A stretch of 46,232 nt of DNA, taken from positions 1 to 46,232 of the IMG/VR virus record IMGVR_UViG_3300046536_000197; one strand, written 5' to 3'. The notes beneath the pieces are model-generated. The model saw only the letters and a program-made list of their open reading frames with translations. It ran no database searches and had not been told where the DNA came from. Numbering within the stretch: the first letter of the stretch is position 1; the number at the start of each line of letters is the position of its first letter. Below, piece by piece: positions 1,506 to 5,518 of this stretch. Source of the stretch: a virus. The translations under genes and the position numbers were made by a program.

Positions 1506-3533
1506 TCAGGCGGCCAATGCCTGCAACTTACTTTCAGCGTCGCAGCCGTACCGAATCCAAGAAGTCGGTGCCGCCAACTCGCTGACGGTAAGTGGCTCCG
1601 CCAGAGCGAGCCGGATGTCCAGCGCAGGCAGCCGCGCCGGGTCTCCGAGCGGGCTCCCCGGGTAGTCCCCGAGCAGGCTGACCGCCTTCTCCAGGTAGCC
1701 CTCGTCCACCATCTTCACGGCCATCTGCTTCAGGTTCGCCACCGTCGTCGGCAGGACCTCCTGCGGCAGCTCGTTCCACCGCAGAGCGTGCCGGGCCTTG
1801 TAGAACAGAGCCTCCAGCACCAGCCTCCGCGACACCCACCGCTTCGCGTCACGCGGCTCCGGCTGCGGGAAGATGTACGCGATCTGCTCCCACTGCTCAT
1901 CGGTCAAGGTGTCGGGGACCAGCCTCTCGTGGTCCATGAACCACTTCTCCACGACGCTCGGGCGCAGCACTCCAGTATTGGCCGACTCCTTGACGATCAC
2001 CTTGACGTCGAACAGCTCGATCACGTCTCGGCGCTGCCTCTCGGTCAGTTCCTCCAGGCGAGGGGAAATCTGGTCGGCCAGGGCCAAGACGTCCGCCACG
2101 CGCTGTTCCTCTTCCTCCGCCTTGACGAGCCAGCCCTGGACGGTCTTCAGCTCCTTTTCGAGGTCCTGCTCCTGCTTCACCAGGGTTGCTTTCACCTCCG
2201 CCACCATCTCCTGGTCGACCTTTCCGTCATCGTCGGTGAAGGCGTCGGAGGCAAGGAGGTTGAGCAGCTTCGTCTTTCGGGTCTTCCGCTTCTTCTCGAT
2301 GGCTGCTTCCAGCTCGTCGATACGGATCCGGTAGTTCTCCGAGCGCTCGGGAATCCCTCCGAGCCACTGGTCCGCGAGTGCCCGCAGGTTCTCGCGGTCC
2401 TTCAGGCCGATTGCGACGGCGTCCCACACGAATTTCTCGACGGCCTCGGCGTAGATCTGCGAGCAGCCGCACTTCTGCTTTCCACGGGTGCCGTGGCCGA
2501 CGGAGCCGTTGCAGCGGTAGACGGCAGAGCGTTCGTCTGCATGGTTCTGGGCTCCGGTGTAGCTGGATCCGCAGCGGGAGATGAGGCGCTTCGACAGGAG
2601 GTATTTGCGGTCGGTCGGGTTCGTCTTGGTCCACGACAGCCGCTTGACGGCCGCGCGGGCGGCGTTGACGCGCTCCTTGGGGAGGATCTGCGGCAGCTTG
2701 ATTTCGTGGGTCTCGCCGTGGACGAAGTTGCCGTCCTCGTCGACCTCGGCCTCGGACAGGCCACTCTCGGGGTCGCGGACGCGGACGTAGCCGAGCAGGG
2801 CGTTGCCCATGATGATCCTGCGGAGGGAGGTGGAGTTCCAGGGGCCTCCCATACGGGTGGGCCGGTTGAGTGCCATCAGCTTGTCGCAGGTCTCTGCGAG
2901 GTTCAGGCCCTCGTCGACCAGGCCCTCTACGGCGATCTCGATGGTGCGCTGCTCGTCCGTGTTCAGGACGGGGGTGGCGTCGCGACCCTTGCCTTCCAGC
3001 TTGATGCCGAACGGCGGGACGCCGAGGCCCCACTTGCCTTCGGCCAGCTTCGCTTCACGGCCGGACATGGTGCGTTCCTTGATCAGGACGTGTTCCATGT
3101 CTGCCATCCAGGACAGGATGGAGAGCATCAGCTTGAACATGTCGTCGTCGCTGTCGAGGCGACCGTCGGCGGACATGACGCGGACCTTGTGGGTCTTGGT
3201 GGTGTCGAACACCCACTGGTGGATGTCCTCCATGGTGCGTCCGATGCGGTCCAGCTTGGCGACCACGACGACGTCGATCAGTCCGGCCGCGATCATCGCG
3301 TTCATCTTGTCGAACTCGGGGCGGCTGGCCAGCTTGCCGGAGACGCCCCCGTCGGTGAAGACCTCGACGATCTCGTAGGGCTGGTTGGCGAACTTCAGGC
3401 CGATGAGGGCCCGGCTCATCTCGTCCTGCGTAGAGAGGCCGTAGCCCTCAAGCTGCTTGATGGTTGAAACGCGCAGGTAAATGGCGATACGCAGAGTTGC
3501 GCGACGCTGCCTGGGCAGGGTTGACTTACGCAC
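1506..3533 (-). CDS. Large serine recombinase (integrase) with IS5-transposase-like C-terminal domain
   Basis: 675 aa, GTG start with AAAGGAG six bases upstream. It should catalyse site-specific integration/excision. The N-terminal resolvase domain shows IAIYLRVSTIKQ with the catalytic serine at residue 23, and later DVVVVAKLDRIGRTMEDI with its conserved DRIGR. The recombinase domain follows (about 170-290). A zinc-ribbon-like segment (about 320-360, SRCGSSY ... YRCNG ... QKCGCSQ) lacks one cysteine of the usual first CxxC. A charged coiled coil lies at about 385-475. Unusually, residues about 540-590 (TLTDEQWEQIAYIFP ... LVLEALFYKARHALRWNELP) resemble the N-terminal domain of IS5-family transposases (DUF4096), without the DDE catalytic part. 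It is longer than phiC31-type integrases (roughly 600-615 aa). Confidence 0.9.
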   Translation of the reverse strand: MRKSTLPRQRRATLRIAIYLRVSTIKQLEGYGLSTQDEMSRALIGLKFANQPYEIVEVFTDGGVSGKLASRPEFDKMNAMIAAGLIDVVVVAKLDRIGRTMEDIHQWVFDTTKTHKVRVMSADGRLDSDDDMFKLMLSILSWMADMEHVLIKERTMSGREAKLAEGKWGLGVPPFGIKLEGKGRDATPVLNTDEQRTIEIAVEGLVDEGLNLAETCDKLMALNRPTRMGGPWNSTSLRRIIMGNALLGYVRVRDPESGLSEAEVDEDGNFVHGETHEIKLPQILPKERVNAARAAVKRLSWTKTNPTDRKYLLSKRLISRCGSSYTGAQNHADERSAVYRCNGSVGHGTRGKQKCGCSQIYAEAVEKFVWDAVAIGLKDRENLRALADQWLGGIPERSENYRIRIDELEAAIEKKRKTRKTKLLNLLASDAFTDDDGKVDQEMVAEVKATLVKQEQDLEKELKTVQGWLVKAEEEEQRVADVLALADQISPRLEELTERQRRDVIELFDVKVIVKESANTGVLRPSVVEKWFMDHERLVPDTLTDEQWEQIAYIFPQPEPRDAKRWVSRRLVLEALFYKARHALRWNELPQEVLPTTVANLKQMAVKMVDEGYLEKAVSLLGDYPGSPLGDPARLPALDIRLALAEPLTVSELAAPTSWIRYGCDAESKLQALAA

Positions 3534-3561
3534 GGCGGTCTCCTTTACAGACTGCTACTTA

Positions 3562-3597
3562 GAGACCCCGGCTGGCTCCTATCCCAGCCGGGGTCTC
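3562..3597 (-). terminator. Strong terminator between the 55-aa gene and the serine recombinase
   Basis: A 14-bp perfect stem, GAGACCCCGGCTGG (3562-3575) / CCAGCCGGGGTCTC (3584-3597), has an 8-base loop. It lies between the stop of the - strand gene at 3646 and the start of the serine recombinase at 3533, so the recombinase probably has its own promoter or depends on read-through. Confidence 0.75.
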
Positions 3598-3645
3598 GTG
3601 CTGTCTGGGAGACTACCTGATGTCAAGAGGTTTCTTCAGGGCCTT

Positions 3646-3813
3646 TTACGCAGCGGTCTCCTCCCCGGGACGGGGTCCGAAGAGGATGTGGGCCAGGCGC
3701 TGACGCTCCTCGTTGCTCCAGTGGCGCCGGGTGATCGTCAGGGTGCTCTTGGGCTGCTCCGCGCGGGAGCTGGTATTAAGCGGCGTGAGGTCGATGACCG
3801 TGACGTTGTCCAT
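3646..3813 (-). CDS. Small hypothetical protein carrying the CTTAATACC motif
   Basis: 55 aa on the - strand, ATG at 3813-3811, TAA at 3648-3646. It begins MDNVTVIDLTPLNTSS and contains the basic segment TLTITRRHWSNEERQRLAHILFG, a possible helix pair. No family is recognised. Support for a real gene: an upstream promoter candidate facing left, a strong terminator just downstream, GC-biased third positions, and the only - strand copy of the dispersed CTTAATAYC word in the coding orientation. Its place between two integrases and beside divergent promoters would suit a recombination directionality factor or regulator, but nothing in the sequence proves either. Confidence 0.6.
   Translation of the reverse strand: MDNVTVIDLTPLNTSSRAEQPKSTLTITRRHWSNEERQRLAHILFGPRPGEETAA
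3772..3780 (-). repeat. CTTAATAYC copy (-)
   Basis: CTTAATACC on the - strand, in frame (LNT) inside the 55-aa gene. It is the only copy on this strand and still follows the coding direction. Confidence 0.75.
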
Positions 3814-3837
3814 GCCGAGGACCGTACTACGGCTTAC

Positions 3838-3866
3838 GGATTACGTCTACGCAAGTGCATTGCCAA
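3838..3866 (-). promoter_or_regulatory. Leftward promoter candidate for the 55-aa gene
   Basis: On the - strand TTGGCA (3866-3861) and TAATCC (3843-3838) are spaced by 17 bases. The -10 is imperfect at its last base. Its -35 overlaps the -35 of the rightward integrase promoter, and two copies of or near the AAGNCGTART word (3826-3836 and 3840-3850, both - strand) lie over and after the -10. Confidence 0.4.
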
Positions 3867-3888
3867 ATGTGCTTGACGTCGGTACGAT
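3860..3888 (+). promoter_or_regulatory. Promoter of the tyrosine recombinase gene
   Basis: TTGCCA (3860-3865), 17-base spacer, TACGAT (3883-3888), which fits the actinobacterial housekeeping sigma consensus. The start point would fall near 3895, leaving a leader of about 27 bases with an AGGAGG ribosome binding site at 3912-3917. It overlaps the leftward promoter at the -35. Confidence 0.6.
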
Positions 3889-3921
3889 CGAGCGCAGCAG
3901 CACCCCGCAACAGGAGGAAGC

Positions 3922-4995
3922 GTGAACATCGCACTGCGCAGCGCCATCGACGAGTACCTGGGCAACCGGCGGGCCGGTAAGGCCGACAACACGATGCGCG
4001 CGGACGACAACCTGCTGCCCCGCTTCGCCGACCACGTCGGCAACCCCGAGTTCTCCGACCTCACCCCTGAGCAGGTCCGGGACTTCTTCTACGGCGACGG
4101 CGGCCTGATGGACATCCACGTCACCCGCATCAAGGGCCAGCAGCTCCGGGCGGCCGTGGGCCCGAGCACGCACAACCACTACCGCAAGCGGCTCGCCCTG
4201 TTCTTCGGCTACTCCCACGCCCGGGGCCTGGCGCCTCGCAACGACTACCTGTGCCTGGTCGACCCGCTGCCCGAGGTGCGCAAGCAGCGCATGCAGCCCG
4301 CGCCGGGCATCCTGCTCCAGCTCCTGGACCAGGCCGAGTGCGCCATGCACCGCGCGTACCTGGCTACGGCGGTGAACACCGCGTGCCGCGCGAGCGAGCT
4401 GGTGAACCTGCGCGTCGGCGACGTCGACTTCGCGGCCTCCGAGGTCTTCGTGACCGTGATCAAGACCAAGGAGGAGGACGAGATGCCACTGACCGCCGAC
4501 CTGGAGAGGGAGCTGCGCATCTGGTTCGAGGAGTACGCGGCACTGCTCGGGCGCCCGCTGCGGGCAGACGACTACCTCTTCCCGGCGCGCTCGGGCAACC
4601 AGATCAAGACGCACTACCTGGACCCGGCCACGGGGAAGCGTGTGTACGAGCGGACCCCGTTCGTCTACCACGCCGACCGGCCGGTGGAGCGTACGGAGAA
4701 GATCGTCAAGGGTGCGCTGGCCAAGCTGGGCCTGCCGACCCGGTACGAGGGCACGCACACGGTGCGCAGGGCGGTGGCTCGCGCGTACTTCGACCAGCTC
4801 GCCGAGGACGCGGGATACGACGCGGCACTGCGTACGGTCTCCGCGCTGCTGCACCACTCGTCCATGACGACCACGGAGCGGTACCTGGGGCTGTCGAGCG
4901 AGAAGCGGCGCCGGGACGAGACGATGAAGGGCCGGGCGTTCCTGACCGCGATGGTCTCCCAGGAGAACGTCGTACCGCTGCGCTCGGTGCGATGA
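3922..4995 (+). CDS. Tyrosine recombinase (phage integrase family)
   Basis: 357 aa, GTG start with AGGAGG five bases upstream. It should cut and rejoin DNA through a 3'-phosphotyrosine, here probably for integration, excision or resolution. The N-terminal SAM-like core-binding domain spans about 1-110 (IDEYLGNRRAGKADNTMRADDNL). The catalytic domain carries R156 (CRASELVNLRVGD), H279 and R282 (HTVRR), H311/H312 (LLHHSSMTTT) and nucleophile Y321 (ERYLG), so the active site looks complete. There is no obvious N-terminal arm-type domain, which makes it closer to XerC/D-like enzymes than to lambda Int. A terminator follows. Having this and a serine integrase within 3.5 kb is unusual; which one integrates the phage cannot be told from sequence alone. 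Confidence 0.9.
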   Translation: MNIALRSAIDEYLGNRRAGKADNTMRADDNLLPRFADHVGNPEFSDLTPEQVRDFFYGDGGLMDIHVTRIKGQQLRAAVGPSTHNHYRKRLALFFGYSHARGLAPRNDYLCLVDPLPEVRKQRMQPAPGILLQLLDQAECAMHRAYLATAVNTACRASELVNLRVGDVDFAASEVFVTVIKTKEEDEMPLTADLERELRIWFEEYAALLGRPLRADDYLFPARSGNQIKTHYLDPATGKRVYERTPFVYHADRPVERTEKIVKGALAKLGLPTRYEGTHTVRRAVARAYFDQLAEDAGYDAALRTVSALLHHSSMTTTERYLGLSSEKRRRDETMKGRAFLTAMVSQENVVPLRSVR

Positions 4996-5002
4996 CATGA
5001 CG

Positions 5003-5032
5003 AAGGCCCCTGCCGAACCCGACAGGGGCCTT
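5003..5032 (+). terminator. Bidirectional terminator after the tyrosine recombinase
   Basis: A 10-bp perfect stem AAGGCCCCTG (5003-5012) / CAGGGGCCTT (5023-5032) with a 10-base loop lies 8 bases after the integrase stop and upstream (in + coordinates) of the convergent gene ending at 5053. Confidence 0.75.
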
Positions 5033-5052
5033 ACGTGTGTCTGCGGGCTGCG

Positions 5053-5307
5053 TCAGACGATGTACTTGAAGAACAGGCCGAGGACGAGGATGACGGCGAC
5101 GGCGAACGCGGCCTGCTTGATGCCCTGCCAGGAGAGGTCACCGTCGCCCGCAGGAGCGCCGTACTGCTGCTGGGTGTAGAAGTCGTGCTGCTCGCGCATC
5201 AACTGGTGCTGCTGCGCGTCCAGGGTGGGGTCGTAGCCCTCCGGCGGTGCCGGGTTGACCGCGTTGCCCACCTGGTGGCTTATCGACTCCAGTCCGAACC
5301 TATCCAT
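5053..5307 (-). CDS. Small tail-anchored membrane protein
   Basis: 84 aa on the - strand from ATG 5307 (MDRFGLESISHQ). A polar, Gln- and Pro-rich region with PPEGYDPTLDAQQHQLMREQHDFYTQQQYG is followed by one C-terminal membrane segment, AAFAVAVILVLGLFFKYIV, ending at the last residue. The layout is that of a C-tail-anchored inner-membrane protein with its N-terminus in the cytoplasm. Its ATG overlaps the stop of the upstream gene (ATGGATAG), so the two are translationally coupled. Function is unknown; superinfection exclusion or envelope alteration during lysogeny would fit a small membrane protein next to the integrases, but this is inference. Confidence 0.65.
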   Translation of the reverse strand: MDRFGLESISHQVGNAVNPAPPEGYDPTLDAQQHQLMREQHDFYTQQQYGAPAGDGDLSWQGIKQAAFAVAVILVLGLFFKYIV

Positions 5308-5518
5308 GGTCTTCTCCGTCCACGTAACGCTGTGCTCGGCTCCGCAGCGGAGAGGTGCGGTCCCACACGTGCCAGCGCCCCCCACAGACCGGATCAAGTC
5401 CGTAGGCTACCTCCTGGGGAAATCCGGGCACACTGGGGCGCTCGGTTTTAGGTTCTTCGGAGAGGTCCCGACCGCACTTAGGGCAGGTCTCCGGGTCTCG
5501 CATCGGCCACATGCCCAT
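5300..5518 (-). CDS. Small zinc-finger-like protein
   Basis: 72 aa on the - strand, ATG 5518 with AAGGAG six bases upstream. Residues 12-15 form a CPKCGRDL knuckle, and a later CGGRWHVW supplies a third cysteine and a histidine, so one zinc could be bound (C-x2-C ... C-x4-H). The rest is polar with several Pro. The gene overlaps the following membrane-protein gene by 8 bases and is driven by the leftward member of the divergent promoter pair at 5546-5598. It may be a small DNA- or protein-binding regulator; no family is recognised. Confidence 0.6.
   Translation of the reverse strand: MGMWPMRDPETCPKCGRDLSEEPKTERPSVPGFPQEVAYGLDPVCGGRWHVWDRTSPLRSRAQRYVDGEDHG

Follow-up and report, generated by a model that had tools for sequence, protein, structure and literature searches.

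The locus analysed here raises the question of how a domain resembling part of a transposase came to lie in a serine integrase, and what it does there. The window, by which we mean the whole stretch of DNA analysed, is an entire IMG/VR virus record of 46,232 bases and belongs to a virus of soil bacteria. A preliminary description had read the open reading frame at 1506-3533 on the minus strand as a serine recombinase with a transposase-like tail, and the coordinates and sequence that it gave for the frame were correct (675 aa, GTG start). The Pfam families in the protein appear in the usual order of Resolvase, Recombinase and Zn_ribbon_recom, followed by DUF4096. Ser23, in the motif YLRVST, is invariant in our alignment A2, and we take it to be the nucleophile of the window integrase. 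The features of the gene are as follows.

1506..3533, minus strand: large serine integrase gene (int), GTG start, 675 aa plus stop
3030..3488, minus strand: Resolvase catalytic domain, residues 16-168 (Pfam PF00239, E 2.9e-31)
2646..2957, minus strand: Recombinase domain, residues 193-296 (Pfam PF07508, E 2.4e-5, over the cut-off)
2415..2600, minus strand: zinc ribbon, residues 312-373 (Pfam Zn_ribbon_recom PF13408, E 1.9e-9, over the cut-off)
2073..2354, minus strand: coiled coil, residues 394-487 (AF2: two long helices, 394-428 and 441-487)
1992..2003, minus strand: beta13, strand 1 of the terminal hairpin, residues 511-514 (AF2; aligned to LLEVRVKV of tail-less L165)
1623..1991, minus strand: inserted segment, residues 515-637, 123 aa (comparison with tail-less sisters)
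1671..1907, minus strand: DUF4096-like IS5 transposase N-terminal domain, residues 543-621 (Pfam 543-595; hhalign, whole domain; AF2)
1611..1622, minus strand: beta14, strand 2 of the terminal hairpin, residues 638-641 (AF2; VIA alignments reach 642-646)
1523..1596, minus strand: predicted attP within the int 3' end, centre 1559/1560 (dyad; same centre in L009)

A tyrosine recombinase gene (PF00589, E 1.3e-15) lies at 3922-4995 on the plus strand, divergent from the serine integrase and about 390 bp from it, and the related virus L009/L031 keeps the same recombinase pair (L009: 1942-3018, minus strand, and 3414-5444, plus strand). On the other side of int, a GC-rich inverted repeat seen by eye at about 1452-1490, in the gap separating two convergent genes whose ends are at 1452 and 1506, is probably a shared terminator.

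The zinc ribbon had been described as one Cys short, and this is correct: residue 324, where the usual CxxC motif has its second Cys, is Ser. The candidate zinc ligands in the window are C321, C341, C355 and C357. Among 27 representative integrases, Cys is present at 321 and 341 in all and at 357 in 26; residue 355 is Cys or His in 23, and the other four have His at 324. This distribution suggests that the window integrase probably retains four zinc ligands, one of them at a shifted position, where Cys355 may serve.

The match to DUF4096 (PF13340) falls at residues 543-595 with an E-value of 2.3e-10 and 41 bits against a curated cut-off of 34.3, so that the likeness to IS5 transposases noted at the outset is significant; it spans 55 of the 76 profile positions. 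When the window tail was searched by itself, DUF4096 was the sole Pfam family at E<=10, and a PF13340 search across the whole window record matched a single place, the int locus. The NCBIfam model of IS5 transposases (NF033580) matches residues 542-594 with an E-value of 4.3e-10, below the model's own cut-off. The DDE catalytic domain, reported as absent in the preliminary description, is indeed missing from the Pfam matches of the window integrase at E<=10. In the wider family, every one of the 24 tails in alignment A4 scores against DUF4096 with E<=0.01 (5.7e-17 at best), and the tails share invariant Pro, Trp, Arg, Lys and Leu-Pro residues. The profile-profile comparison that had been proposed, run on these 24 tails against 21 IS5 N-termini, bore the likeness out over the whole domain (hhalign probability 99.4%, E 4e-21, 78 columns). 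Conversely, an HMM built from 27 integrase tails recovered the DUF4096 region at E<=0.01 in 35 of 35 IS5 loci, 30 from the family of G001 and five from plasmids, all preselected by PF13340 or by the window tail. Six phage integrases (Haizum, Sentinel, phiHau3, Triumph, Spernnie and Andris) have DUF4096 in the same place, below the curated cut-off (E 2.3e-5 to 2.5e-7 in five, 4.1e-3 in one). Other relatives lie much nearer to IS5: L163 matches profile positions 1-75 at 1e-23, and L160, L143, L158 and L091 match at 1e-16 to 1e-20. A PDB sequence search with the window tail returned one match (E 0.62), one with the DUF4096 profile found no solved structure, and a fold search with the domain alone gave weak matches, the best (Z 3.0) being the end-binding subdomain of Mu transposase.

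Could small helical domains have converged on this likeness, with no capture from IS5 at all? The partial coverage of the profile by the window match would suit such an explanation, as would a tree of the domain (below) that mixes integrase and IS5 rows at two places. Against it stand the nearly full-length match of L163 and the strong ones of the other four IS5-nearer relatives, the whole-domain hhalign result and the recovery of all 35 IS5 loci by the tail HMM. We consider convergence very improbable and rejected it. Because the A4 tails, the hhalign comparison and the IS5-nearer relatives all match, we conclude from sequence comparison that the likeness is homology, and the view that an IS-derived domain was captured is upheld.

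The position of the domain is clear from the tail-less sisters with the most similar body (L165-L169; body HMM 192-262 bits), whose C-termini form a short hairpin such as LLEVRVKVINNTS-SPRLEITGTVP. Both strands are also present in the fused proteins, about 120 residues apart (LLDVRVTVTGP...LPPLRVEGRVDPR). The pattern is VRVKV, a short turn and PRLEITG in L165, L166, L168 and L169, and VRVTV, about 120 aa and LPPLRVEG in the fused proteins; L167 has a longer turn than the other tail-less sisters, still without a DUF4096 domain. Across all 27 representatives the length of the insert ranges from 118 to 124 aa. In an AF2 model of the window integrase (built on 33 sequences; mean pLDDT 75, pTM 0.42), strands 511-514 and 638-641 flank the insert, within which helices are predicted at 545-554, 569-582, 598-610 and 613-621. 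Structural alignment reaches model residue 642-646, opposite the final residues of solved serine integrases (LI, 452; Bxb1, 476-483; YokA, 532-535; phiC31, 587-588), with a large whole-model rmsd in this comparison because the domains are placed differently. The zinc domain of LI integrase is described as ending in a beta13-beta14 hairpin that extends the sheet (Rutherford et al., PMC3783163). From the short-turn sisters, the AF2 strands, the structural alignment, the LI hairpin and the constant insert length we therefore conclude that the DUF4096 domain is nested in the beta13-beta14 turn of the zinc domain, with the integrase fold complete on either side. A C-terminal tail was rejected, since the short turn of the sisters and the structural alignment put a native strand, 638-641, after the domain; the "tail" of the preliminary description is an internal insertion. 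Its alternative, that the region aligns to ordinary serine-integrase C-termini, holds for the two flanking strands only and fails for the rest.

The fused architecture is widespread. A2 matched at E<=1e-60 in 42 of 392 Streptomyces genomes (the genus of G001), in a search whose ranking favours tailed integrases, as the A2 profile contains the tail; the tail HMM matched in 30 of 30 fetched Streptomyces loci, out of 46 places listed. With a body-only profile at E<=1e-30, matches were found in 12 of 396 genomes of the phylum and 26 of 394 of the class, and the class search added 27 new loci, of which 5 have the domain and 22 lack it, some of them truncated. The tail HMM scored at most 2.3 bits against the C31, TG1, R4, BT1, SV1 and Joe integrases, none of which carries the domain. 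In a body tree of 66 rows, a single branch (SH-aLRT 94) separates the 40 integrases with the domain from the 26 without it. The rows of this tree were hand-picked (18 of the 27 representatives, 18 of the 30 loci L082-L111 and 4 of the 5 loci L160-L164, with the tail-less rows also selected), row N_L145 was dropped after the profile missed the chosen frame, and the outgroup is not one clade. The tree of the domain itself (57 integrase and 33 IS5 domains, 95 columns; IS5 rows L132 and L141, integrase rows with fewer than 70 domain residues and identical rows left out) is less clear on the origin than the body tree: it needs two label changes, a single change occurring in only 4% of bootstrap trees, and the integrase domains of L098, L101, L102 and L110 sit by IS5 while two alphaproteobacterial IS5 domains sit by integrases. 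These data suggest that the domain was probably acquired once and then inherited in integrases carried by phages, prophages and small integrated elements of Streptomyces.

The same fusion thus exists in other integrases (phiHau3, Haizum, Sentinel and those of many Streptomyces genomes), so the fusion first noted in the window stands but is not a one-off. A private, recent fusion was rejected on the same ground, the architecture being present in phages and many Streptomyces genomes; what the window contains is an old insertion of an IS5 transposase domain into a serine integrase, shared by a sizeable Streptomyces family. A viral-contig scan with the whole window protein gave no match, and a DNA search of window positions 1-24000 against phage records gave no near match. 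Searches of the open-access literature found no description of the DUF4096-serine integrase architecture, and among the papers naming DUF4096, judging by titles, none is on integrases.

An old insertion might also be a tolerated relic with no present role. The sequence has diverged, and the six phage integrases all fall below the DUF4096 cut-off, as a relic might. However, the narrow range of insert length in all 27 representatives, the invariant positions in the 24 tails and the retention of the domain in all 30 fetched loci argue otherwise, as does a dN/dS of 0.43 for the domain between the window and L031, which indicates purifying selection in the one pair measured. We regard a relic as improbable.

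The 3' end of int is itself unusual in relatives. Over the final 10-40 codons, prophage copies of int diverge from phage copies and continue into host genes. Prophage L018 is documented by both of its junctions and by four empty sites: beyond int the sequence continues as host DNA starting at L188:1494, the other flank corresponds to L188:14-1513, and the two junctions have 20 bp in common, TCCACCAAGGGGATCACCGG. Because the host gene is read in the frame of int at the junction, integration of L018, with its attP within the final codons of int, exchanges the C-termini of the integrase and the host protein. In five further elements (L091, L092, L160, L161 and L163), int runs in frame into the 3' part of a dprA-like gene; the far ends of these dprA-type elements lie in L206, L207, L211, L212 and L214, giving an element size of about 12-21 kb. 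Host targets are also shared within each of two groups (L015, L016, L017, L019, L027 and L036; L010-L014), L036 being cut at the gene end and grouped by its int end only. One group targets an ABC-2 type permease-like gene and another a dihydropyrimidinase-like gene; these names, like that of dprA, are our readings by eye and are presumptive.

If the window integrase resembles these relatives, attP probably encodes its last ~30 residues, which would account for the poor conservation and low pLDDT there. The window protein ends in LQALAA (window 1506-1520), its relative in SQLLAA, phiC31 in DVAA and TG1 in TAAA. The first two endings resemble, in our reading, an ssrA-type degradation tag, and integration would change such a tag because attP in relatives falls at the int 3' end. 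The phiScoe1 (OQ672741) integrase is 38% identical to that of the window. For the phiScoe phages, a published study (PMC10276819) reports no attP except in Joe-like ones, after a search restricted to intergenic DNA around the integrase. The attP of phiScoe1 may lie within the int 3' end, and an attP inside the coding end of int may help explain why that intergenic search missed the attP of some phages.

A canonical attP half-site is 25 bp long, and DUF4096 serves in binding IS ends. Several attP sites of the family carry inverted repeats that extend to ±32 to 37. In Sentinel-type phages the attB and attP dyads have a common centre, TCCA^CCAAGG, and with the centre fixed by the attB dyad the attP shows 11-12 of 14 matches at ±19-32 in eight of eight phages, which are related to each other; 0.024% of all window centres reach 11 of 14 over the same positions. 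The window dyad centred at 1559/1560 matches at 21 of 32 positions, a value reached by 4 of 46,160 window centres, itself included (P about 0.009 under a best-of-120 null), and L009, whose integrase is 80% identical, has the same dyad centre. At ±26-37 the matches out of 12, at a background rate of 0.273 per position, number 9 in the window, 10 in L009, 10 in L033, 7 in L004, 7 in L057, 6 in L003 and 6 in L039, compared with 1 in Joe, 5 in BT1, 4 in C31 and 4 in R4 among the tail-less integrases (BT1 and Joe attP taken from record annotation, phiC31 and R4 attP at presumed positions). Two dprA-type elements, G1151 and G1107, reach 30 and 29 of 44 matches, with a null maximum of 27 in 5000 samples. 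A significant long repeat was absent from the other three of five dprA-type elements (G033, G365 and G1052) and from phages L034, L005 and L061. When the centre was picked from the inner arm alone, that of the window shifted to -64, where the outer arm matched at just 3 of 12 positions, and L009 (P 0.002) and L057 (P 0.036) alone among 16 phage regions fell under 0.05. The P'-arm pattern was found in neither of two genomes. The domain carries almost no net charge in the 27 representatives, versus a mean of +2.8 in 35 IS5 domains. The proposal that the domain may supply DNA binding and change integrase specificity is thus favoured by the extended attP repeats but not by the near-neutral charge or by the part of the family in which the repeats are missing; an added contact of the integrase on the outer att arm has moderate support.

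The charge bears on another explanation, in which the domain is a protein-interaction module for directionality near the dock of the recombination directionality factor (RDF), gating the coiled coil or recruiting a cognate RDF without contacting DNA. In phiC31, I582, needed for binding of the RDF gp3 (PMC5814800), is in the last strand, RASITW, directly after the insertion point. We retain this explanation on account of that location, and the loss of the net positive charge of the IS5 relatives also agrees with it, but it leaves the extended attP repeats of several members unexplained, and we judge it rather unlikely.

We favour, with moderate confidence and partly by inference, the reading that the captured IS5 domain in the hairpin turn is an added DNA-contact module reading the outer attP. 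The zinc domain is the outermost DNA-binding domain of a canonical serine integrase. The IS5-type N-terminal (DUF4096) domain built into its hairpin turn would form a small helical DNA-contact module at its outer edge, with which each subunit would read about 7-12 bp past the usual 25-bp attP half-site; the extra contact would strengthen or re-specify attP recognition, and the catalytic chemistry would match that of any serine integrase. More tentatively, capture of an IS5 DNA-binding domain may have given rise to an integrase lineage with a third DNA-reading domain, an attP of ~65-75 bp that is also the coding 3' end of int, and C-termini swapped with a host protein. Serine integrases are standard genome-engineering tools whose site specificity is hard to alter. 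The hairpin turn is a permissive insertion point for a foreign domain of ~120 residues, close to the outer arm of the DNA and also to the part of the protein implicated in RDF docking, and if the domain does read DNA, it would be a natural example of integrase site recognition altered through domain insertion and a precedent for adding specificity to these enzymes.

Among known systems, the integrases of phiHau3, Haizum, Tefunt, Sentinel, Spernnie, Triumph, Andris and phiScoe1 carry the same insertion in the same place as the window; the six examined phage integrases are 661-673 aa long and 36-40% identical to that of the window over the whole protein. The examined insertion-bearing phages belong to Arquatrovirinae, whereas the window comes from a different virus group. 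The integrases of LI/A118, Bxb1, SPbeta (YokA), phiC31, TG1, R4, BT1, SV1 and Joe have the catalytic, recombinase, zinc, coiled-coil and terminal hairpin parts as in the window. With IS5-family transposases (PF13340; NCBIfam NF033580) the window integrase has the N-terminal helical domain in common over its whole length; unlike them, it has no DDE catalytic domain, and its DUF4096 domain is internal in another enzyme. The DUF4368 clade of large serine recombinases, described as multi-targeting and TndX-like (Durrant et al. 2022, PMC10083194), is likewise distinguished by an additional domain of unknown function, from a different Pfam family.
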